From the NCBI GenBank assembly GCA_003557545.1, contig PWOD01000172.1, positions 1 through 32,028 on the forward strand: a stretch of 32,028 nt of DNA, given 5' to 3'. Within the stretch, counting starts at the first letter, position 1. Each line of letters opens with the position of its first letter. Position numbers and translations under genes: made by a program. The notes beneath the pieces were generated by a model. It saw only the letters and a program-made list of their open reading frames with translations. It had not been told where the DNA came from and did not search any database. The stretch comes from a bacterium (GTDB lineage: Bacteria; T1Sed10-126). Shown here piece after piece: positions 1 through 12,933 of this stretch.

Positions 1-3000
1 AGCTGCACCGACTGGAGATACCGCTACATGTGGGATGATCTGACCTGTGAAGATGATGATCTGATCTGGGATGGAGATGCGGTTCCCTTTGTTGAACACA
101 CCTGGAATAATGTTTCAAGCGGTTCTTACGGAGAACTCCAGTACTGGACTGCACCCGGTTCAGGCACCTACAGGATTCACGCCTGGGGAGCTCAGGGGGG
201 AGCTACACCTAACGCAACCGGCTGGGCACCAGGACCTGGCCACCAGGGAGGTTACGGCGCCTATATGTCGGGTGATTTTGAACTTCGGGGCGGGGAAACT
301 ATTGTCATCATGGTGGGACAGATGGGGGAGGAAGGTTCATACGGTGGAGGAGGAGGGGGTGGAACTTTTGTCACACGTTATGGGGCTCAGGATGATAGTG
401 ACATTTTTGTGATTGCCGGTGGTGGTGGTGGTGGTGGAAAAACAGATCCCGGTGTTAACGGAACCACAAGTACTGCAGGAACTGCCGATGCTTCAGGTCG
501 GAACCAGGGTGGAGTAAGTGGTTTAGGTGGACCGACTGACGCGGCAGCCGGCCGGGTAGCTCCCGCCGGTGGTGGTGGTGGCTTTAGAGGAAATGGTGCC
601 CTGGTAGGATCGGGAAGTTCTCGCCCGGCCCAGTCTTTTCTTAATGGTGGAGATGGTGGTTACGTATGGGAACGGGGGTGGGCCTACGGACAGGATGGAG
701 GTTATGGAGGTGGCGGCGGTGGATTTAGAGCTGGCTGGGGCCCGGCCGGGGGAGGAGGAGGAGGATACTCCGGTGGAGGTGGTGGATACCGTAGTGGTGC
801 AGGAACTCATGGCGGTGGAGGAGGCGGTTCTTTCAATGCCGGGCAAAACCAGCAGAATCAATCCGGTGTAAGATCCGGTCACGGTAAGGTAATGATCGAG
901 GGAGGGGTTGAGGTCCGGGGAGTAAGGATTTCCCGGCCGGTTGATCTGGATAAAATCAAACGTGTCTCCACCTCTAATATCGAATGGGATGCCAGTCAGC
1001 CTGGCGAAGCGAATGTTTCGGTAGAGGTAGCAATTACCGATAATCCTGATCATCCGCCGGTCGAAAAATATGAATGGATGGAGGCGGTAAGTGGCGAAAA
1101 CGTGCCGGGAGTAAACTGGGGAGATGATCTGTCCGGCAAATATTTATGGATTCGTCAAACTCTGACAACCAACTCCGATGAGCTGCCAAGGCTGCATGAA
1201 ATAGATGTCGAGATTAAAGGTGAGCGGGGTTCGGATGGATATCTGCTGTCGAAACCCCAGTCGATGCTGCCTTCTAAACCAAACCTTGTCGATCTTGAAT
1301 ATGATTTAAATAACGGTGAGATAACGGTTGATGTAATCGGCTCGCCGGGAACGGCCAACGAGGAGATAATCTCCGGAGTTGAGCTGTCAGGCCAGCAGGA
1401 GGTTGATCTGGACTGGGAGTCAGAGCACACAGTTTTTCAGACCCGGGTGCATCTGGAAGGTTCAAGCTGGGGAGCATTTCCCGAGTTTGACAGTTTAACT
1501 CTGGAGTCGAGCAAACAGTATGAGCTGGAGATAGAGATCGAAGGAACCGGCCGGGTGGGTGTCAACGGAACCCGCTATGATGATGGAGATACGATTCTGC
1601 TGGATGCCGGCAGCCGGGTTGATATATCGACCCATACCGGTCTGGGCTGGAGTTTTGACTACTGGGAGGAAGATCTCAGCGGAGAAACCCGGCCCCAGGC
1701 TGTAAAATGGATGGATTCGGACAAAAAGATCAAAGCAGTCTTCAGACGTGACACCTTTCTGCTGACGATTGATATAGAGGGTTGGGGATATGTGGAAGCT
1801 AATGGTGAGAGATACTACAACAATGACGCGCCGGTCGAGGTTGAGGTTTATGTGGGGGATACGGTGGGACTTGAGGCGATGCCTGATGATGGCTGGCATT
1901 TCCGGCTGTGGATGGGAGATTTACGGGGTAATGATCCTTCCCAGGAGCTGCTTGTTGATGGCAATAAATCGGTAACAGCAGTATTTACCGACGTCTATAT
2001 GCTGCATCTTGATATCTGGGGAGAGGGCAGTGTGATAATTGAAGGGGAAGAATATACTCACCGTGATGCGCCGACCTGGGTGCAGGTGGGAGCCGGAGAT
2101 ATGCTGCAGCTGGAGGCAATTGCGGCCGGTGGCTGGGAGTTTGAGAGATGGGAAGGTGATCTGTCCTCAGACAGTCCGGTCGGTCAGCTGTTTATGGATG
2201 GTAACAAGCAGGTGACAGCGATATTTGATGAGCAGGTGATACCCACCTATGATCTGGAGATCGATATAGAGGGTGCCGGCAGCATCCTGGTTAACGGTAG
2301 AGAATACAGTAATACCGATGTTCCCGCCCGGCGACGGATTGAGCTGGGTGCTGAGGTGGAGCTGGTTGCCGTGCCCGGCAACAACTGGGAGTTTGTCGGC
2401 TGGGAGGGTGATTTAAGCGGTGATGATATAGTTGAACGTTTAATAATGGGTGACCAGGGAAAACAGGTAAAAGCAGTCTTTGAGCGGGAGAGATATGATC
2501 TGTTGCTGGAGATTGAAGGCCGGGGTTCAATTATTGTTGACGGGGTTGAATACACGGAGAATGATCTGCCGCAGAGTCTGCGCATAGATACCGGAACCGT
2601 TGTGCAGCTGGAGGCTGAAGCGGCCCATGAGTGGGGATTTGATTTCTGGGAGGGTGCGCTCAGCGGCAGTGATACCAGCGGGGAGATTGTAATCAGCGGT
2701 CCGGCCCAGGTTAAAGCAGTGTTTGAAGATCAGCGTTTAGAACGGTTCGACCTGCGGCTAAATATTGAAGGCAGTGGTTCGGTATGGTTAAACGGTAGAG
2801 AATATACAGATTTCAACGCCCCGGTCGATGTTACCTATACTACCGGAACCCTTGTTGAGTTAGAGGCCGCCCCGGCGGTGCGCTGGGATTTGGTCGGCTG
2901 GAGTGGAGATCTCTCCGGGGACAGCCTGACCGAAACTCTATTAATGGAAGGCGATCGTGAAGTGACGGCGGTCTTTGAACAGGTGGGTTACCGGCTGTTG

Positions 3001-6000
3001 CTGGAGATAGAAGGATCAGGTGGAGTTGAGGTTGATGGTCAGCTGTATGATGTTGAGCAGACCCCGAGGGGAATAACAGTGTTGATTGGGGAGACGGCGG
3101 CGCTGGAGGCGGTTGGCCATGCCGGCTGGCGGTTATCCCACTGGGAGGAGGATTTGACCGGGGATGCTGATACTGCGAGTCTGTGGATGGATTCTGATAA
3201 AACGGTTCGCGCAGTATTTGAACGGGCGACCTATGAGATCACAATAAATATCGAGGGTGAGGGGAATGTTTTTATTGATGGGGAGACCTATGTCGGCACA
3301 GTAGCCCTTCTGGGGGGAGATACATTGCAGCTGGTGGCTGAAGGGCTGTGGGCCTGGGGTGATCAGTACTGGGAGTTAGAGGGCTGGAGCGGAGATATTA
3401 GTGGCACGTCGGCCAAACAGCCGTTGTTTTTAGATGAAAACAAGGAGATTACGGTAACTTTCAACCAGCTGCCGACCTACCGGTTGACGGCTGATATCGT
3501 CGGGCCGGGTGGGATCTATATAGAAGACATAAGGTATTCACAGCCGCTTGATTTACCGCAGGGTGAGACGGTTACGGTGGCGGCGCGCAGCGACGATATC
3601 TGTTATGCTTTCCAGCAGTGGGGCGGGAATCTATCGGGAACAACCAGTCCGATTTCATTGAACCGCAGTAGCGATGGATTCATCAGTGCTGAGTTTGGCA
3701 CCGGATTGAACGAGGGTTCAGGTACCAGTGGCGATCCCTATGGAATCTATAACTGGTATGATCTGAACAGCGTGCGCTGTTATCCGGAAGCCTATTATCT
3801 GCTGCGGGAAGATTTAGATGAGCACAGCTCCGGTTATCATGAGCTGGCCTCGCCGGAGGCTAATGATGGAGCCGGCTGGCTGCCGATAGGCACGACCCAG
3901 GAACTTTTCAACGGTCAATTTGATGGTGACAGTCGAACGATCACCGGTTTAACGATTAATCGTTACGGAACTGAAAATGTCGGATTGTTTGGTGAACTGG
4001 TTGGAGCGGCTGAGATCCGCCAGTTAAAACTGAAAGATGTGGATATTACAGGAGACACCTATGTAGGAGGATTGGTTGCTTATAATGATGTCAGTGGTGG
4101 ATTAATCGAGGATGTATCGGTCAGCGGGAGAATTGCTGGAACCAGCCGTGTGGGTGGTGTGGTGGGTGTCAACTATGGCAGGCTGATCGGTATCAGTGCT
4201 GAGGTTGAGCTGACGGCCAGCTTCCCCAGCCGTATGAGTCGCCGGTTTGCCGGTGGGCTGGTGGGACGTAACATGGGCCGTGGTGAGATCGAGCGTTCTT
4301 CAGCCGTCGGGTCGGTGACCGCCTCGGGTGATCGGGTTGGAGGATTAGTGGGTGATAACTACGGAGATATTGCTAACAGTTATGTCAATGTTGATGTTAC
4401 CGCAGCGCGCAGAGTTGGTGGATTGATAGGTTTTAACCAGGGGCTGGTGGAAAATACCTATTCACGGGGTAAGGTTGATGGAGGTTCACGTAATGTCGGG
4501 GGGCTGGTGGGAGATAATATCTGGCAGGTAAGAAACAGCTTCTGGGATGTTGAAGCAAGCGGTCAAACCAGCAGCGACGGTGGTCAGGGCAGGAGCGAAA
4601 GTGAGATGACCGCAATCAGCATCTATGAGGACGCCGGCTGGGAGATAGGTCGAACCCAGGAGCCGGGGAATGATGGTTATCCATATTTCTCCTCCGATAC
4701 CCCGCTGTGGTTAATTGAATCCCACGAGATGGAGGTAGTGGTAGATATTGATGGAGAGGGTGATGTGCTGGTCAATGGTGAGACCTATGTTGAACCGGTG
4801 CTGATCGAGGCTGGCAAGACGGTAAGTTTCGAAGCGGTAGAATCAGCTGACTGGAGTTTTACCGGCTGGTCCGGTGATTTAAGCGGTGATATTCCGCTGC
4901 GGGAGGTAGTCATTGAACGTGATTTAAGGGTGGTTGCCTCATTCGGTGAGACCTATATTTTAACAATAGATATCGAGGGTGAAGGTGAAGTCTTAGTAGA
5001 TGGTGTAAGCTACACTCAGCCACTGTATATACGGGGAATTAATCAGCTGACGATTGAGGCCGCTGGAGAAGCTCCCTGGGAGCTGTATCAGTGGGGTGGA
5101 GCTTTGAGCGGTGACCAGCCGGTTAAGCAGCTGCAGCTGGATGATAATAGATCAATCACCGCCTATTTCTGGCCGGGCGGGGGGACCCAGGAGCAGCCCT
5201 ATGAGATAACTGACTGGCATGATCTGGCAAGAGTTTCGGAGTTTGGCGGGATAGATTTTATTGAGATGCACTACCTGCTGGCTAATGATCTGGATGACAA
5301 CAGCGCCGGTTATACTGAGCTGGTGGGAAGCACGGCTAACGGTGGATTAGGCTGGCAGCCACTGGGCGATGAGGACAGTCCGTTTGACGGAGTATTTGAT
5401 GGCGACAGTAACCGAATATCCGACCTGTGGATGCAGCGTCCCGAAGCCCAACAGAGTGGACTGTTCGGCGTGGTAGCCGGTGAGATCAAAGATCTTCAGC
5501 TGGTTAGAACAGATATTGAGGGCGGCAGTGAAGCCGGTGTGTTAGCCGGGAAACTGCTTAACAGCGGCCGGCTGACTAATATAGAGGCACGTGGACAGAT
5601 ATCCGGTCAAACCCGGGTGGGAGGAGTGGTGGGAGTCAATGAGGGGATAATTCGATTAATCGAAGCAGCTGTAACTGTCAGCGGCAGCAGCCGTCTGGGC
5701 GGGATAGTCGGGGAGAACCGCGGAACGATTGAAAACAGCTACAGCCGGGGAGCAATCAGTGGTGATGAGATTGTTGGAGGGATGGTAGGAGAAAACAATG
5801 GAATTGTGGAAACCAGCTATTCCCTGGGACAGGTGAGTGGTTCTTCAGAGAGCGGTGGGTTGATCGGGGGCCGGGCTGATGGAGTTGCTCCCGGCAGTTT
5901 CTGGAGTCTGGACAGCTCCGGTCAAACTGATAGTGCGGGGGGTGAAGGAAAAACCAATACTGAGTTAAGACAGCTGGGGACCTTCCTTGGCGCCGGGTGG

Positions 6001-9000
6001 GATATTACCGGGGCGGCCCAGTCGAAGAACAACGGTTATCCATTCTTTAATGATGCTGCATCGATCTGGGCGATTTCCATGAGTGAGCTGCGGCTGACGG
6101 TGGAGATCGAAGGAGAGGGTGAGGTTTATGTTGATGGTGAAAAATATCAGGAACCGCTGATGATTGAGGCCGGCGAACAGGTTAGCCTGGAAGCGGTCAG
6201 CGATGGTTACTGGTGGTTTGCCGGCTGGGAGGGTGATTTAACCGGAAGTGATCCGGAAGAGCAGCTGGAGATGGAGTTTGATCGGACGGTGCGGGCGGTT
6301 TTTAGCAACGCTTATGATTTAACCGTTGAAATTGAGGGTGAAGGTTATGTTCTGGTGGATGGTGAAACATATACATCAGGCCATCAGGTGGGTGGTGGTG
6401 AGACTGTTGAGTTTGAAGCAGTTGGTGCCGCTTACTGGGATTTTGTTGAGTGGGATCAGGATCTATCGGGATCGGCAGCTGTGCAGCAGTTATATATCGA
6501 TGGTGAGAAGCAGATCAGGGCCAGTTTCCGCCGCGATTCAGTCAGTTTAACGATTGATTTGGAGGGAGCCGGTCGGGTTCTGGTGGAGGGCGAAGAATAT
6601 AGCGGGCAGCTGCACTATTATCGGGGTGAGAAGGTGCAGCTAAGAGCTGAGCCGGAGCATCTGTGGTATTTTTCCGGATGGGAGGTTGACCTGGAATCAC
6701 CGGAGGAATCGCCGCAGCTGCTGATGGATAGTAATAAACAGCTGACTGCCCGGTTTGCTCAGCATGATACAGCACTGGTTGAACTGAATTTTGTCGGTGA
6801 GGGCCAGGCGCAGGTAGATGGAGAAAAATATGATGAACCGCTGGTAGTGGTGCGGGGTGAGACGGTTGAACTAACTGCTCTGCCCAGCCGTGAGCCGGGT
6901 GAGGGATACTGGAAGTTTGTCGGCTGGGACGGTGACCTGGTTGATGATTTCAGTCCGATCGTAGCCACTGTAGATACAGATCTGCAGGTGGCGGTCCTGT
7001 TTGAGCCTGACAGTGTGCTGCTTGATATAGATATTAGTGGCAGCGGGGAGCTGGTATTTGATGATAATAGCTATACCAGCCAGCTTCAGCTGCGGGCCGG
7101 GTTGGAACATATTGTTGAAGCGCAGCCTTCGCCGGGCTGGAGGTTTGATGGCTGGCATGGCCTGCTGGGCGGTTCAAATCAAACAGCAAATCTACTGGTG
7201 GAAGAGACCGGTGAGCTGGGATTAAGTTTCAGTCGGAAAGATTTTGCCGGAGGAGATGGTTCGGAAGCTAATCCCTACCAGATAGAAAACTGGTATCAAC
7301 TGGATGCGATTCGGGATAATCTTGAATCCAGTTTTGTGCTGATCGCTGATTTAGACGCTGAAAGTTATGGTTATAATGACATGGTGCAGGGGATCGGTTG
7401 GGAGCCCCTGGGTAATTTCTGGGATTCACAGTTCAGCGGCCTGTTTGACGGACAGCACAGGACTATTGCCGATCTGTATATCAACAATTCGATGGGTTAC
7501 AGCGGTCTGTTTGGTTATCTGAGCGGTGACGCACGGGTGAAAAACCTGGGTCTGATCGATCTTGATCTGCAGGGTGGTAACTACAGCGGTGCTCTGGCCG
7601 GTCGGAACGATGGATTAATTCAACAGGTATTTGTCGAAGGTCAGGTAAGCGGAGCCAACCAGGTGGGAGGAATTGTCGGGCAGAACTATCAGGGTGGAAC
7701 AATCCGCAATAGCTACAGTCATGCCAGTGTAACCGCCACTGAGCGAGCCGGTGGACTTGTGGGCTATAATATTGGTGGGCTGATAGAAAGCAGTTTTGCC
7801 ACCGGTGAGGTTTCAGCCGATGAGGATGCCGGCGGACTGGTGGGAATGAACTGGAACGGTGAGGTGCTGAATAGCTTCTGGGACGTGGAAAGTTCAGGGA
7901 TCTTTGTTAGTGATGGTGGTACTGATAAGACCGGTGCTCAGATGCGACAGCTGGAGCTGTATGAAACAGCCGGCTGGTCGATCGCCGGGGTGGGAGCTGA
8001 TGACAACGATGGGTATCCCTATCTGTCCGGGGATCAGCCGGTCTGGCATATTCAGGTGGACACACTGACAGTAACGCTGGAGGGTATAGAGGGAGCCGGC
8101 ACACTGAGGCTGGATGGTGAAACCTACAGCCAGCCGGTGCAGCTGCAGCGAGGGACAACAGTCCTGTTAGAGGCGCTCCCCGAGGAGAACTATAACTTCC
8201 TGGGCTGGGAGGGTGATGTTAGTTCAAACAATCCACAGGTGGAGCTGCTGGTTGATTGTCATAAAGATATTCAGGCCCGGTTCCGACATGAAACCGAACT
8301 GATAACGGTTGATATCGAGCAGCAGGGGTCGGTATATATCAATGGTGAGAGATATCAGCGGCCGGTCGAGGTGTTGACCTCATCGCCGGTAGAGTTTACT
8401 GCTGTTGCTGATCAATACTACCATTTTGTCGGCTGGGAGGGTGATTTAAGCGGTAGTGATACAACGGTTGTCAGAACAGTTGAGGCTGCCAAACAGATAA
8501 CTGCTATCTTCCGCCGTGATACTCATCTGATAGAGGTAGAAGTTGAGGGGGAAGGAGATATTTATCTGGACGGTGATACCTACATCGAACCGGTGGTTGT
8601 GGAGGGTGGAAATACCCTGCGGTTTGAAGCAGTCGGGCGTCAGATTTCTGAAGAGGAGTTCTGGGGATTCATCCGCTGGGAGGATGGTTTAACCGGTGAA
8701 CAGGACAGGGTGAATGTTGTAATAGAACAATCTAAAACAGTGCGGGCGATCTTTGGGAAACTTGATACCAGTATTGTAACAGTAGATATTGAAGGTCCGG
8801 GTGAGCTCTATATAGACGGTCGTCCCTACAGCGAGCCGCGGGTCATACTGAGTGGTGAGCAGATCACTGTAGAGGCGGTGGGTGAGCGGGGTTGTTACCG
8901 GCTGCTCAGCTGGGGCGGGGATTTAAGCGGTGATGATCCCGAGCGGCAGGTACTGGTTGAAACAGACATGTTAATCAGCGCTGAGTTTGTAGCTAATTTT

Positions 9001-12000
9001 GGCGGTGGAGAGGGCAGCGACGAAGCGCCTTATGAGATAACCAACTGGTATCATTTACACAGCGTCCGCTGTTTTCTGGATTCCAACTTTGTGCTGAAAG
9101 CAGATCTGGATGAGACAGTAAACGGCTATCAGCAGGTCGCCTCGGCAGCGGCTAATGATGGATCTGGATTTAAGCCGCTGGGTAATAATGATGGTGGATT
9201 CAGTGGAGCGTTTGATGGACAGTACAGAACGATTAGTGATCTGACGATCCAGCGGCCCAATGAGGATTATGTTGGATTGTTCGGACAGATAGAAAGAAAC
9301 AGTCTGGTTGAGGCGGTGGGGTTGAACAACCTGCAGATAGCAGGTAAGAATTATGTTGGTGGAATAGCCGGTTATAATAGCGGCAGTATTCAGCGCAGTT
9401 ATGTGGAGGGAACAATCAGTGGTCAGGAAAGAGTTGGAGGTATTTCAGGCCGCAACCACATTGGAGCGAACCTGCGCAACCTGTACAGTCGTGCCCAGGT
9501 CAGCGGTCAATCCCGCGTGGGTGGGATAGTTGGTATGAACTATGGATCAACCGTCAGCTATACCTTCAGTGCCGGAAAAATCGAGGCCGGCCATCAGGTT
9601 GGTGGGCTGGTCGGGCATAATAACTTTGGCACGGTATCACGCAGTTTCTGGGATGAACAGCTGAGTGGCCAGAGTGAGTCGGCCGGCGGTGGCCGGGGAA
9701 AAACCAGTTATCAACTGAAACGTATAGAGACCTATGAAGCCGAAGGCTGGGAGATAGAAGCGGTCTTAGAGGATGAAAATGACGGCTATCCTTACCTGAG
9801 CGGAGGCGAGCCGATCTGGCAGATAGCGGTGGGAGAGCTGCGGTTAACCGTGGATACAGCCGCCGGCGAGGGTCAGGTGCTGGTGAATGGAGAAGAATAT
9901 ACAGAACCTGTTTTAGTGGGAGCCGGTCAGTCTGTGGAACTACAGGCGGTGGCCGCCCCCGGCTGGGAGTTTGCCGGCTGGTCGGGTGATCTGCAGTCAC
10001 AACACAGCCTGGTGGAGCTGTTGATGGATTCAGAAAAAACTCTGGAAGTAGAGTTTGAACGGGGCAGTTATCAGCTGCAGATTGAGATCGAGGGTGAGGG
10101 TGAAGTTTATGTTAACGGAGAGTTATACAGTGAGCCGCTGCAGCTGTCGGGCGGTCAAACGGTTGAAGTAGAGGCTATCGGAGCCGATGGTTGGGGGTTT
10201 GCCGGATGGTCCGGTGATATTAGTGGTGCAGCGGCCAGCCAGGAGTTTGAGATAGTTGAGGATATGAACCTGGAGGCCGAGTTTCTGGTGGGACTGTATC
10301 AGCTGGATATCGAGCTGGAAGGTTCAGGGGAGCTGTTTGTTAATGGTGAAAAATATAGTCAACCGGTTGAGTTGACCGGCGGCAGTTCGGTGCAGTTGGA
10401 GGCGGTAGCTTCAGATGGTTGGGAGTTTGTTGAATATTCTGGGGATATTCAAAGCAGCAGTCCTGATCAGGAGTTTGTGATTGATAAAGATTATTCGTTA
10501 ACCGTTAGCTTTGTTGAAAGTCGGTATCAGCTGGAAATTGAGGTGGAGGGACCGGGCGAGGTTTACCTGGACGGGGTTAAATATGATCAACCAGTCGAAG
10601 TCGGTTGGGGACAACAGCTGCTGCTGGAGGCTGAGGCGGACGATGATTGTCATCGGTTTGCCGGCTGGGGTGGTGACCGTCAGGGTCAATCTGAACAGCT
10701 GCAGCTGACAGTTGACGGTGATCTGCAGCTTACCGCTGAGTTCACCGCGGGTTTTGCCGGCGGCCAGGGTTCGGCGGCTGATCCCTACAGAATCTCCAGC
10801 TGGGAACAGCTGGCACGGATGAGCTGTTTTCCAACCGCCAGCTATCAGTTAGTGGAAGATCTGGATCAAACCAGCGCTGGATATCAGGAGATTGCCTCTG
10901 CTCAGGCTAATAATGGTGCGGGCTGGGAGATGCTGGGCAGCGCTGATCAGCCCTTCGCCGGTGAGTTAGACGGTAGCTCACACCAGCTGAAGGATCTGCA
11001 TATCAATCGGTCGGGTGAGGCTTCGATCGGTATTTTTGCCAATCTTTCGGGACGGGTGAGTAATCTGCGGTTAAATAATCTGCAGGTAACCGGCGGCAAT
11101 TTAGTCGGGGGCCTGGCCGGTCAGCTGCAAAGCAGTGGTGAGATTGTTGGAGTAGAAATTTCCGGTGAGGTTACCGGTTCGGCCCAGGTGGGAGGTATGG
11201 TTGGTCGTAACCTCGGTCAAATCGAAGCAAGCAGTAACAGTTCAACAGTGAATGGAAGTTTTGATGTGGGTGGGATTGTGGGGAGAAACCAGTCCGTGCT
11301 GAAAAATACGGTTAATACCGGAAAGGTCAGCGGTGACTACAGTGTCGGTGGGCTGGTTGGATACAACCGCAGTTATGTTGGTTATTCCTATACAACCGGT
11401 GAGGTTAGCGGGCTTAATATTGTAGGTGGATTAATTGGTCGGCGGGATAGTGGAGCTGAAGCGGAGGCGAGTTTCTGGGATGTTGAAGCAAGCAATCAGA
11501 GTTCCAGCGCCGGTGGTGAGGGTAAGAACCACGAGCAGCTGCAGCGGATGCAGACCTACAGCGACGCCGGCTGGGATATTACAGCGATCGGTTCTGAGCA
11601 GAATGATTACCTGCCCTTTATCCAGCTTGATCAGAGCGGCACGTGGAAGAAGAGCGTGCGATTGACGATAAATATGACCGGTAAAGGAACGGTACTGGTG
11701 GATGGCGTCGAACATACTGAGCAGCTGACAATACCGTTGACCGATGCGGTTTCCCTGGAAGCTGTGCCTGACCCGGATATCTGGGTGTTTAACAGCTGGT
11801 TTGGTGATTTAACTGGTGATCAGTTAATCAAAACTGTGCCGGTTGATTCGGATGTCGTAGCGACCGCCTCCTTTACCCTGGATATGAAGGGAACGGGGAC
11901 GGTGGATGATCCCTATGTGGTGACCACCTGGGATGAGATGGATATGGTTCAGGAACATCCGGATGCCCATTATACACTTGACGGAGGACTGTTTACTTTC

Positions 12001-12933
12001 TCAACCTCCTCAATCTCAACTCAGAGCCAACGAACGCTTAAACCGTTGACCCGACCTGATCAGCCCTTCACCGGAACTTTTGACGGTGCCGGGGCGGTGC
12101 TGGAGGGAATTACGATTGAGGCTGGCCATGGGGTGGCCGCATTGTTCCCCCACGTAGATGGCGGAGTGATAAAAAATATTGGACTTATCAATCCACAGGT
12201 AGAAGGGGGCGATCTGGCCGGCGGTCTGGTCGGACATTTAGAATCCGGCCGGGTGGAGAACAGTTTTGTGCGGGGAGGTAGGGTGAGTGGTGGCCGGGGT
12301 GCAGGAGGTCTGGTTGGTAAGATGAGTGGCGGTGAAGTGAAAAACTCCTACGCCGCGGTGCAGGTAATAGCGGATGAAAAGTTTGGTGGTCTGATCGGTT
12401 CGGCCAGCGGTGGAGAGGTAACCGGTAGTTTCTGGGAGAAGAATGCCAGTGGTCAATCAAGCAGTGCCGGTGGAATCAAGAAAACCGCCCGGCAGTTAAG
12501 AGAGCTGACAACCTTTGTCGATGCTGGCTGGGATATTCAGATTACTGAGCAGCAGGTTAATGATGGTTATCCCTATCTTTCCCGAGAGGCTGGTGGCTGG
12601 CTGTTAAGCGTCAGCACGGGCGATGAGCAGGCCAGTGGACTGTCGAACTTAATCGTCGGTCCCAATCCCTTCCGTCCCAACGACGGACGTGCTTCGACCG
12701 GGCGGGACAGACTGTATTTTGGCTTCAACTCCAGTTCGCCGGGACCATTTGTCCTGGAGATATACACCCTTACGGGCCGGCTGGTTTACAGTGAACAGAC
12801 CTCCCGGGACCCCTACGGATGGGATCTGCGCAACAACTCCGGTCAGCGGGTCAGCAGCGGCTATTACCTGTACCGTGTGGAAGAAAGATCAACCGGCGAT
12901 ATGAAAACCGGTAAACTCGCGATTGTTCGGTAA
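1..12933 (+). CDS. Giant repetitive surface/secreted protein (5'-truncated): Gly-rich ALK/LTK-like module, InlB-B-like repeats, GLUG-type blocks, FlgD-like C-terminal domain
   Basis: Open from base 1 in frame (SCTDWRYRYMWDD...) with no upstream stop in the window, so the true start lies left of it. Repeated signatures L.I.IEG.G...V.G..Y...G..V.LEA...W.F.GW.GDLSG...A.F and VGGLVG.N.G.I..SYS.G / SFWD...SGQ..S.GG. Stop TAA at 12931-12933. Confidence 0.95.
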   Translation, partial: SCTDWRYRYMWDDLTCEDDDLIWDGDAVPFVEHTWNNVSSGSYGELQYWTAPGSGTYRIHAWGAQGGATPNATGWAPGPGHQGGYGAYMSGDFELRGGETIVIMVGQMGEEGSYGGGGGGGTFVTRYGAQDDSDIFVIAGGGGGGGKTDPGVNGTTSTAGTADASGRNQGGVSGLGGPTDAAAGRVAPAGGGGGFRGNGALVGSGSSRPAQSFLNGGDGGYVWERGWAYGQDGGYGGGGGGFRAGWGPAGGGGGGYSGGGGGYRSGAGTHGGGGGGSFNAGQNQQNQSGVRSGHGKVMIEGGVEVRGVRISRPVDLDKIKRVSTSNIEWDASQPGEANVSVEVAITDNPDHPPVEKYEWMEAVSGENVPGVNWGDDLSGKYLWIRQTLTTNSDELPRLHEIDVEIKGERGSDGYLLSKPQSMLPSKPNLVDLEYDLNNGEITVDVIGSPGTANEEIISGVELSGQQEVDLDWESEHTVFQTRVHLEGSSWGAFPEFDSLTLESSKQYELEIEIEGTGRVGVNGTRYDDGDTILLDAGSRVDISTHTGLGWSFDYWEEDLSGETRPQAVKWMDSDKKIKAVFRRDTFLLTIDIEGWGYVEANGERYYNNDAPVEVEVYVGDTVGLEAMPDDGWHFRLWMGDLRGNDPSQELLVDGNKSVTAVFTDVYMLHLDIWGEGSVIIEGEEYTHRDAPTWVQVGAGDMLQLEAIAAGGWEFERWEGDLSSDSPVGQLFMDGNKQVTAIFDEQVIPTYDLEIDIEGAGSILVNGREYSNTDVPARRRIELGAEVELVAVPGNNWEFVGWEGDLSGDDIVERLIMGDQGKQVKAVFERERYDLLLEIEGRGSIIVDGVEYTENDLPQSLRIDTGTVVQLEAEAAHEWGFDFWEGALSGSDTSGEIVISGPAQVKAVFEDQRLERFDLRLNIEGSGSVWLNGREYTDFNAPVDVTYTTGTLVELEAAPAVRWDLVGWSGDLSGDSLTETLLMEGDREVTAVFEQVGYRLLLEIEGSGGVEVDGQLYDVEQTPRGITVLIGETAALEAVGHAGWRLSHWEEDLTGDADTASLWMDSDKTVRAVFERATYEITINIEGEGNVFIDGETYVGTVALLGGDTLQLVAEGLWAWGDQYWELEGWSGDISGTSAKQPLFLDENKEITVTFNQLPTYRLTADIVGPGGIYIEDIRYSQPLDLPQGETVTVAARSDDICYAFQQWGGNLSGTTSPISLNRSSDGFISAEFGTGLNEGSGTSGDPYGIYNWYDLNSVRCYPEAYYLLREDLDEHSSGYHELASPEANDGAGWLPIGTTQELFNGQFDGDSRTITGLTINRYGTENVGLFGELVGAAEIRQLKLKDVDITGDTYVGGLVAYNDVSGGLIEDVSVSGRIAGTSRVGGVVGVNYGRLIGISAEVELTASFPSRMSRRFAGGLVGRNMGRGEIERSSAVGSVTASGDRVGGLVGDNYGDIANSYVNVDVTAARRVGGLIGFNQGLVENTYSRGKVDGGSRNVGGLVGDNIWQVRNSFWDVEASGQTSSDGGQGRSESEMTAISIYEDAGWEIGRTQEPGNDGYPYFSSDTPLWLIESHEMEVVVDIDGEGDVLVNGETYVEPVLIEAGKTVSFEAVESADWSFTGWSGDLSGDIPLREVVIERDLRVVASFGETYILTIDIEGEGEVLVDGVSYTQPLYIRGINQLTIEAAGEAPWELYQWGGALSGDQPVKQLQLDDNRSITAYFWPGGGTQEQPYEITDWHDLARVSEFGGIDFIEMHYLLANDLDDNSAGYTELVGSTANGGLGWQPLGDEDSPFDGVFDGDSNRISDLWMQRPEAQQSGLFGVVAGEIKDLQLVRTDIEGGSEAGVLAGKLLNSGRLTNIEARGQISGQTRVGGVVGVNEGIIRLIEAAVTVSGSSRLGGIVGENRGTIENSYSRGAISGDEIVGGMVGENNGIVETSYSLGQVSGSSESGGLIGGRADGVAPGSFWSLDSSGQTDSAGGEGKTNTELRQLGTFLGAGWDITGAAQSKNNGYPFFNDAASIWAISMSELRLTVEIEGEGEVYVDGEKYQEPLMIEAGEQVSLEAVSDGYWWFAGWEGDLTGSDPEEQLEMEFDRTVRAVFSNAYDLTVEIEGEGYVLVDGETYTSGHQVGGGETVEFEAVGAAYWDFVEWDQDLSGSAAVQQLYIDGEKQIRASFRRDSVSLTIDLEGAGRVLVEGEEYSGQLHYYRGEKVQLRAEPEHLWYFSGWEVDLESPEESPQLLMDSNKQLTARFAQHDTALVELNFVGEGQAQVDGEKYDEPLVVVRGETVELTALPSREPGEGYWKFVGWDGDLVDDFSPIVATVDTDLQVAVLFEPDSVLLDIDISGSGELVFDDNSYTSQLQLRAGLEHIVEAQPSPGWRFDGWHGLLGGSNQTANLLVEETGELGLSFSRKDFAGGDGSEANPYQIENWYQLDAIRDNLESSFVLIADLDAESYGYNDMVQGIGWEPLGNFWDSQFSGLFDGQHRTIADLYINNSMGYSGLFGYLSGDARVKNLGLIDLDLQGGNYSGALAGRNDGLIQQVFVEGQVSGANQVGGIVGQNYQGGTIRNSYSHASVTATERAGGLVGYNIGGLIESSFATGEVSADEDAGGLVGMNWNGEVLNSFWDVESSGIFVSDGGTDKTGAQMRQLELYETAGWSIAGVGADDNDGYPYLSGDQPVWHIQVDTLTVTLEGIEGAGTLRLDGETYSQPVQLQRGTTVLLEALPEENYNFLGWEGDVSSNNPQVELLVDCHKDIQARFRHETELITVDIEQQGSVYINGERYQRPVEVLTSSPVEFTAVADQYYHFVGWEGDLSGSDTTVVRTVEAAKQITAIFRRDTHLIEVEVEGEGDIYLDGDTYIEPVVVEGGNTLRFEAVGRQISEEEFWGFIRWEDGLTGEQDRVNVVIEQSKTVRAIFGKLDTSIVTVDIEGPGELYIDGRPYSEPRVILSGEQITVEAVGERGCYRLLSWGGDLSGDDPERQVLVETDMLISAEFVANFGGGEGSDEAPYEITNWYHLHSVRCFLDSNFVLKADLDETVNGYQQVASAAANDGSGFKPLGNNDGGFSGAFDGQYRTISDLTIQRPNEDYVGLFGQIERNSLVEAVGLNNLQIAGKNYVGGIAGYNSGSIQRSYVEGTISGQERVGGISGRNHIGANLRNLYSRAQVSGQSRVGGIVGMNYGSTVSYTFSAGKIEAGHQVGGLVGHNNFGTVSRSFWDEQLSGQSESAGGGRGKTSYQLKRIETYEAEGWEIEAVLEDENDGYPYLSGGEPIWQIAVGELRLTVDTAAGEGQVLVNGEEYTEPVLVGAGQSVELQAVAAPGWEFAGWSGDLQSQHSLVELLMDSEKTLEVEFERGSYQLQIEIEGEGEVYVNGELYSEPLQLSGGQTVEVEAIGADGWGFAGWSGDISGAAASQEFEIVEDMNLEAEFLVGLYQLDIELEGSGELFVNGEKYSQPVELTGGSSVQLEAVASDGWEFVEYSGDIQSSSPDQEFVIDKDYSLTVSFVESRYQLEIEVEGPGEVYLDGVKYDQPVEVGWGQQLLLEAEADDDCHRFAGWGGDRQGQSEQLQLTVDGDLQLTAEFTAGFAGGQGSAADPYRISSWEQLARMSCFPTASYQLVEDLDQTSAGYQEIASAQANNGAGWEMLGSADQPFAGELDGSSHQLKDLHINRSGEASIGIFANLSGRVSNLRLNNLQVTGGNLVGGLAGQLQSSGEIVGVEISGEVTGSAQVGGMVGRNLGQIEASSNSSTVNGSFDVGGIVGRNQSVLKNTVNTGKVSGDYSVGGLVGYNRSYVGYSYTTGEVSGLNIVGGLIGRRDSGAEAEASFWDVEASNQSSSAGGEGKNHEQLQRMQTYSDAGWDITAIGSEQNDYLPFIQLDQSGTWKKSVRLTINMTGKGTVLVDGVEHTEQLTIPLTDAVSLEAVPDPDIWVFNSWFGDLTGDQLIKTVPVDSDVVATASFTLDMKGTGTVDDPYVVTTWDEMDMVQEHPDAHYTLDGGLFTFSTSSISTQSQRTLKPLTRPDQPFTGTFDGAGAVLEGITIEAGHGVAALFPHVDGGVIKNIGLINPQVEGGDLAGGLVGHLESGRVENSFVRGGRVSGGRGAGGLVGKMSGGEVKNSYAAVQVIADEKFGGLIGSASGGEVTGSFWEKNASGQSSSAGGIKKTARQLRELTTFVDAGWDIQITEQQVNDGYPYLSREAGGWLLSVSTGDEQASGLSNLIVGPNPFRPNDGRASTGRDRLYFGFNSSSPGPFVLEIYTLTGRLVYSEQTSRDPYGWDLRNNSGQRVSSGYYLYRVEERSTGDMKTGKLAIVR
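97..900 (+). other. Domain: glycine-rich module resembling the ALK/LTK glycine-rich region (Gly_rich family)
   Basis: YWTAPGSGTYRIHAWGAQGG ... GGETIVIMVGQMGEEGSYGGGGGGGTFV ... IFVIAGGGGGGG ... GGGGGGSF ... SGHGKVMIE; multiple G5-G7 runs. Boundaries approximate. Confidence 0.8.
1525..3714 (+). repeat. Protein repeat array R1-R9 of divergent InlB-B-like repeats (~70-85 aa each)
   Basis: Nine successive units, e.g. LEIDIEGAGSILVNGREYSNTDVPARRRIELGAEVELVAVPGNNWEFVGWEGDLSGDDIVERLIMGDQGKQVKAVF. Confidence 0.85.
3715..4731 (+). repeat. GLUG-type block 1 with its N-terminal linker
   Basis: GSGTSGDPYGIYNWYDL...FNGQFDGDSRTITGLTI...VGGLVGDNYGDIANSYVNVDV...NSFWDVEASGQTSSDGG...NDGYPYFS. Confidence 0.85.
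4732..5172 (+). repeat. B-repeat array R10-R11
   Basis: VVDIDGEGDVLVNGETYVEPVLIEAGKTVSFEA...W.GDLSG; LTIDIEGEGEVLVDGVSYTQPLYIRG. Confidence 0.82.
5176..6093 (+). repeat. GLUG-type block 2
   Basis: GGGTQEQPYEITDWHDL...FDGVFDGDSNRISDL...VGGVVGVNEGII...GSFWSLDSSGQTDSAGGEGKT...NNGYPFF. Confidence 0.82.
6094..7245 (+). repeat. B-repeat array R12-R16
   Basis: Five units beginning LTVEIEGEGEVYVDGEKYQEPLMIEAG and ending LDIDISGSGELVFDDNSYTSQLQLRAG...LSF. Confidence 0.82.
7246..8070 (+). repeat. GLUG-type block 3
   Basis: GGDGSEANPYQIENWYQL...FSGLFDGQHRTIADL...VGGIVGQNYQGGTIRNSYSHASV...NSFWDVESSG...NDGYPYLSGDQPVW. Confidence 0.82.
8071..9000 (+). repeat. B-repeat array R17-R20
   Basis: Four units, e.g. 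ITVDIEQQGSVYINGERYQRPVEV...YYHFVGWEGDLSGSDTTVV...ITAIF. Confidence 0.82.
9001..9843 (+). repeat. GLUG-type block 4
   Basis: GGGEGSDEAPYEITNWYHL...FSGAFDGQYRTISDL...VGGIAGYNSGSIQRSYVEGTISG...RSFWDEQLSGQSESAGG...NDGYPYLSGGEPIW. Confidence 0.82.
9844..10755 (+). repeat. B-repeat array R21-R24
   Basis: Four units, e.g. LQIEIEGEGEVYVNGELYSEPLQLSGGQTVEVEAIGADGWGFAGWSGDISG. Confidence 0.82.
10756..11661 (+). repeat. GLUG-type block 5
   Basis: GGQGSAADPYRISSWEQL...FAGELDGSSHQLKDL...VGGLVGYNRSYVGYSYTTGEVSG...ASFWDVEASNQSSSAGGEGK. Confidence 0.82.
11662..12600 (+). repeat. B-repeat R25 followed by GLUG-type block 6
   Basis: LTINMTGKGTVLVDGVEHTEQL...NSWFGDLTGD; then GTGTVDDPYVVTTWDEM...FTGTFDGAGAVLEGI...GAGGLVGKMSGGEVKNSYAAV...GSFWEKNASGQSSSAGG. 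Confidence 0.8.
12640..12930 (+). other. Domain: FlgD-like / T9SS type A-like C-terminal Ig-like module
   Basis: LSNLIVGPNPFRPND...LYFGFN...FVLEIYTLTGRLVYSEQ...YGWDLRNNSGQRVSSGYYLYRVEE...KTGKLAIVR at the extreme C-terminus. Confidence 0.75.

Follow-up and report, generated by a model that had tools for sequence, protein, structure and literature searches.

The closest solved folds to the model of the junction described here are those of the M26 IgA1 proteases of Gram-positive bacteria (PDB 6xja, 6xjb; PF05342), which share the GLUG motif (PF07581) with it. In the pneumococcal member of this family, the beta-helix hangs on flexible loops and shifts by about 10 Å, and a disulfide is not mentioned in the respective report (PMC7695701). 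Covalent cross-links including a disulfide have been described for the 7651-aa adhesin of Mobiluncus mulieris, a giant repeat protein in which the cross-links present in the structure, the disulfide among them, are intra-domain and the inter-domain linker is flexible (PMC10619420). The protein analysed here resembles this adhesin in being a giant repeat protein, but differs from it in that the bond we propose would span a domain boundary. A search of the literature on GLUG motifs, B-repeats and inter-domain disulfides yielded no description of a bond at a B-repeat/GLUG junction. What is known are the domain families and the intra-domain, intramolecular cross-links of giant adhesins (PMC10619420), and what is new is the putative, selectively placed bond across the boundary between B-repeat and GLUG block.

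The window, i.e. the whole stretch of 32,028 nucleotides that was analysed, starts at base 1 of contig C81, which belongs to a genome assembly of 2.15 Mb (239 contigs, 92% complete), and carries a giant open reading frame (ORF) of at least 4,301 aa (Table 1). Since the frame is open from nucleotide 1 up to the contig edge and no signal peptide was seen at the visible N-terminus, the true N-terminus is missing, and the length of 4,301 aa as well as the number of eight Cys are lower bounds; before the first ATG, the frame encodes a ninth Cys. The protein consists of a Gly-rich N-terminal part, a central region of B-repeats and GLUG blocks, and a C-terminal domain similar to those of substrates of type IX secretion (T9SS). 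The central region holds 25 divergent InlB B-repeats in arrays of 9, 2, 5, 4, 4 and 1, each followed by one of six GLUG blocks. In the whole protein, the stalk repeats matched PF18998 (Flg_new_2, divergent InlB B-repeat) with 378.7 bits against a cut-off of 23.6, while the fragments of junction 4 and junction 5 alone gave no match to this family. The Glug family PF07581 scored 118.2 bits (cut-off 20.5) with the whole protein and 47.7 bits with the fragment containing block 4 alone. A whole-protein match to PF05342, the N-terminal region of M26 IgA1 proteases (45.3 bits, cut-off 27.7), probably arises through the shared GLUG repeats. Unlike the M26 enzymes, the giant ORF has no matched protease domain: a peptidase catalytic family was not among the Pfam matches (E 1e-3) of the 4,301-aa ORF, to which the missing N-terminal part does not belong. 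The C-terminal domain scored below the curated cut-offs for TIGR04183 (21.3 versus 23) and CHU_C (23.4 versus 27); two other proteins of the same genome passed the cut-off for PF18962, and SprA-like pieces in the genome scored below theirs. A Gly-rich stretch with GGGGGGG runs at 328-900 is weakly similar to the ALK/LTK glycine-rich domain (E 0.012). Outside this ORF, the window encodes mainly housekeeping functions (DinB-type polymerase, Trp/Tyr-tRNA synthetase, NAD synthase, metallo-hydrolase, IGPS, UvrD-type helicase, RtcB and H+-pyrophosphatase), and Rfam gave no match anywhere in the window. When TrpRS was used for placement, its identity to sequences of many phyla was only 42-50%.

An earlier note on this DNA had counted eight Cys in the giant protein and arranged six of them in three pairs. 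Translation recovered all eight, the paired ones at the sites given there and the one outside Table 1 at nucleotide 46, and the spacing within each pair was exactly 59 residues. The first Cys of a pair (Cys1) lies in the last B-repeat of an array and the second (Cys2) in the GLUG block that follows; the respective motifs are DDICYAF/NSVRCYP at junction 1, ERGCYRL/HSVRCFL at junction 4 and DDDCHRF/ARMSCFP at junction 5. The junctions preceding blocks 2, 3 and 6 lack both Cys, as had been claimed, and the aligned residues are given in Table 1.

Table 1 Features of the giant ORF and its B-repeat/GLUG junctions (positions in the window).
Feature	Position	Strand	Basis
Giant ORF	28..12933	+	Translation and Pfam; 5' end cut by contig start
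Cys1 of junction 1 (residue 1192), end of 9-repeat array	3601..3603	+	Translation, alignment
Cys2 of junction 1 (residue 1251), start of GLUG block 1	3778..3780	+	Translation, alignment
Junction 2, without Cys pair (P/D)	4948..5466	+	Alignment
Junction 3, without Cys pair (G/D), control for modelling	7000..7512	+	Alignment, AlphaFold2
Lone Cys in internal B-repeat (LLVDCHKD), unpaired	8257..8259	+	Translation, repeat alignment
Cys1 of junction 4 (residue 2956), directly before B-repeat beta-strand	8893..8895	+	Translation, alignment, AlphaFold2
Predicted B-repeat strand starting directly after Cys1 (fragment residues 45-52)	8896..8919	+	AlphaFold2
Predicted opening helix of GLUG block 4 (fragment residues 95-103)	9046..9072	+	AlphaFold2
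Cys2 of junction 4 (residue 3015), last residue of helix opening GLUG block 4	9070..9072	+	Translation, alignment, AlphaFold2
Cys1 of junction 5 (residue 3541)	10648..10650	+	Translation, alignment
Cys2 of junction 5 (residue 3600)	10825..10827	+	Translation, alignment
Junction 6, without Cys pair (I/E)	11650..12135	+	Alignment
C-terminal domain resembling type IX secretion sorting domains	12628..12930	+	Scores below curated cut-offs

Further junctions were located with a profile of the window's six across the GLUG-bearing contigs of the same genome. Among the 57 junctions in which both positions were present, 20 had Cys at both (CC junctions) and 37 at neither. The all-or-none co-occurrence noticed in the window thus holds genome-wide and is stronger than first claimed, and homologues with just one Cys of the pair, which the earlier note had regarded as speaking against a bond, were not encountered (0/57). 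In all 20 CC junctions, Cys1 and Cys2 are exactly 59 residues apart. The association of the two sites was perfect (Fisher p 8e-16, with rows treated as independent though they are related), and when the 12,949 long-range column pairs were ranked by mutual information, this one came first. Junctions without Cys mostly have Tyr or Phe at the first site and Asp, Asn or His at the second. Both sites are, moreover, confined to the junction: the Cys1 column contains Cys in 20/57 array-ending B-repeats, which precede a GLUG block, versus 0/328 internal repeats (p 9.5e-19, kinship ignored), and the Cys2 column contains none in the 18 GLUG blocks without a preceding B-repeat. One additional GLUG block at the cut start of contig C125 has Cys2, and its B-repeat falls off the contig. 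In approximately 30 GLUG blocks of other genomes, including the sister genus, the Cys2 column holds Y, N, D, E or other residues, but never Cys. A profile of the CC junctions run against genome contigs matched 118 places, none of them a relative, and no CC junction was found in the one sister-genus genome examined. Taken together, the profile search, the sister genus and the GLUG blocks of other genomes revealed no CC junction outside this one genome. CC arrays are longer than the others, with a median of 5.5 repeats versus 1 (Mann-Whitney p 4e-4, kinship ignored); this bias would be in keeping with a mechanical role, although descent is a confounder.

The CC junctions also share their geometry. 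The loop before Cys1 has 13 residues and the linker to the GLUG block six in 20/20 cases, compared to a loop of mostly 12 or 18 and a linker of mostly seven residues in non-CC junctions; the loop of CC-type end repeats is one residue longer than that of most other end repeats. Four junctions combine the CC scaffold lengths with neither Cys (A/G, A/G, V/G and A/Y at the two sites), three of them being near-copies. AlphaFold2 modelling of junction 4, based on an alignment of six sequences, gave a pLDDT of 85.7 and a pTM of 0.81, and placed Cys1 (fragment residue 44) just before a strand (45-52) and Cys2 (fragment residue 103) at the final position of a helix (95-103). The control junction 3, which has no pair, was modelled about as well (pLDDT 85.9, pTM 0.76), with the same elements and an ordered linker. 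The earlier note had suggested that the pair makes some junctions rigid while those without it stay flexible; since the linkers were ordered and the confidence similar in both cases (pTM 0.81 versus 0.76), the models lend no support to flexible non-CC junctions. In a sequence search of the PDB, a GLUG-like lead-in was found in 3n6z with a weak score (E 0.011). The other matches, mostly antibody chains, look like chance.

Based on the all-or-none pattern in 57 junctions, the confinement of each Cys to sites where the partner domain is present, the locked loop and linker lengths and the lack of another conserved metal ligand, each CC junction probably carries an intramolecular, inter-domain disulfide between Cys1 and Cys2 that would pin the stalk end to the beta-helix. 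The inter-domain disulfide suggested in the earlier note is hence well supported, and it is the contrast between rigid and flexible junctions for which the models gave no support. In the proposed mechanism, the partners would be Cys1, located in the array-ending B-repeat in the loop that leads up to its conserved aromatic strand, and Cys2, located where the short opening helix of the next GLUG beta-helix block ends; their bond would fasten the stalk of B-repeats by its end to the beta-helix cap. The bond would form after export, in an oxidising compartment, probably with the assistance of a secreted DsbA-like protein. The co-occurrence of the two Cys, their site specificity and spacing, the lack of other conserved ligands and the predicted secondary structure around both are results of the analysis; we infer that the two Cys face each other and form the bond, and likewise infer the catalyst and any stiffening or mechanical protection of the joint. 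The DsbA-like protein in question (L096:1201-1869) is secreted and has, besides its CFFC active site, a second Cys pair.

The CC junctions are related to each other, and it has to be considered whether shared ancestry alone accounts for the pattern, i.e. whether a CC module arose once and was duplicated, the two Cys travelling together on a 59-residue segment without any bond. For the tree, the poor row L032 was swapped for one row of contig C125, which left the 20/37 split unchanged; three of the non-CC rows (L011, L015 and L027) are near-copies. On the best tree, the CC label changes six times, three of these changes being forced by well-supported branches, and every change affects both sites (0 discordant), in agreement with the expectation in the earlier note that the two Cys are gained and lost together. 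The three supported joint changes are too few for significance (sign test p 0.25). Since one origin of the CC type, with all CC rows in one clade, was not rejected (p-AU 0.41), the number of independent co-changes is uncertain and we make no claim of many independent gains of the pair. This result and the loop and linker lengths common to the CC rows are what an origin by duplication would predict. The mean identity among CC junctions is, however, only 42%, so that most else has drifted, yet both Cys were kept in 20/20 without a single-Cys relic; among the 17 invariant CC columns, only the two Cys are absent from every non-CC junction. At the level of the sequences, it is this retention of both Cys despite 42% mean identity that appears to be the evidence left after allowing for kinship. 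The distances of the B-repeat half and of the GLUG half of the junction are, furthermore, almost uncorrelated (Mantel r 0.20; 0.10 without near-copies), and the nearest neighbour of the GLUG half belongs to the same class in just 8/20 CC rows. Finally, the junction L033:3864-4391 falls on a supported branch together with nine CC rows and has kept the scaffold with neither Cys (A/Y), which looks like a joint loss of both, a direction inferred on a tree that is unrooted at this point. Taking these observations together, we regard ancestry alone as a very unlikely explanation.

Co-conservation of two Cys across a domain boundary would also be expected of ligands that bind zinc or iron at the junction together with other residues. 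The invariant CC columns comprise G, Y, P, W, L and F besides the two Cys, with no conserved His, Asp, Glu or third Cys, and near the junctions of the window protein there is no Cys other than the pairs. As no further conserved ligand is present, a metal site is highly improbable and was rejected as the main reading, in line with its lower rank in the earlier note. The Cys could instead join neighbouring chains or different junctions into bundles, which would be feasible given that a chain has several junctions and a cell many of these proteins. The exact spacing of 59 residues, the locked loop and linker and the strict pairing within junctions rather fit a local partner, and partners in other junctions of the same chain are not required, since L010 contains just one CC junction in its 4,363 aa; such intermolecular or swapped disulfides thus have very little probability. 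Equally little can be given to a buried contact of free thiols that packs the interface without a bond, like the core Cys of internal repeats. These core Cys occur in a KxCTAxF motif, in which Cys replaces the core Val/Ile of the last strand in 49/328 internal B-repeats and 0/57 array-ending ones (49/108 versus 0/13, p 8e-4, within the proteins using it, namely L033, L026, L031, L034, L036, L068 and L027), and look unpaired and buried. Reduced, buried Cys are thus apparently tolerated in 49 internal repeats, so that a Cys alone does not imply a bond; this weakens arguments from the scarcity of Cys, but not the all-or-none pattern at the junctions. It is also compatible with free thiols, and counts against the bond, that neither DsbB nor VKOR was found by Pfam in the 92%-complete genome; this is weak evidence, as part of the genome is missing and there may be other partners. 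Against free thiols, mere packing would accept Cys together with Ala, Val or Ser, yet none of the 57 junctions has a single Cys. In an internal repeat close to an array end (minus-strand ORF 2685 of L033, residues 649-727), an HCYFDCW motif with two Cys three residues apart adjoins the Cys1 column.

Going beyond the individual disulfide, we tentatively consider a broader scenario, which we judge possible but rather doubtful: the 13-residue loop, the 6-residue linker and the two Cys might constitute a modular covalent clamp, used at chosen joints across this family of giant surface proteins and particularly at those between a longer B-repeat stalk and a beta-helix. Each protein would then have its own pattern of locked and unlocked hinges, possibly switchable by redox state. 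This scenario fits the bias in stalk length (median of 5.5 versus 1 repeats). If the disulfide reading is true, the presence of a bond at some joints and its absence at others of one chain would provide a natural series for joint stiffness in giant surface proteins, with 20 CC examples and 37 comparison junctions within one genome.

In the sister genus, one B-repeat/GLUG junction (L071, G001:C28; L050) contains just two Cys, which flank the boundary at positions other than those of the CC junctions (GWQFCKW and EEGSCFILI, 57 apart by hand count). This single case may represent an independent solution of the same kind. The host genome shows a huge expansion of B-repeat/GLUG proteins: the listed ORFs, some of which are cut or split, total about 70,000 residues, corresponding to about one tenth of the 2.15-Mb assembly. 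The largest has 5,487 aa, and the proteins are encoded on contigs C5, C6, C8, C11, C18, C20, C54, C61, C81, C92, C104, C112, C125, C179, C214, C228, C235 and others.
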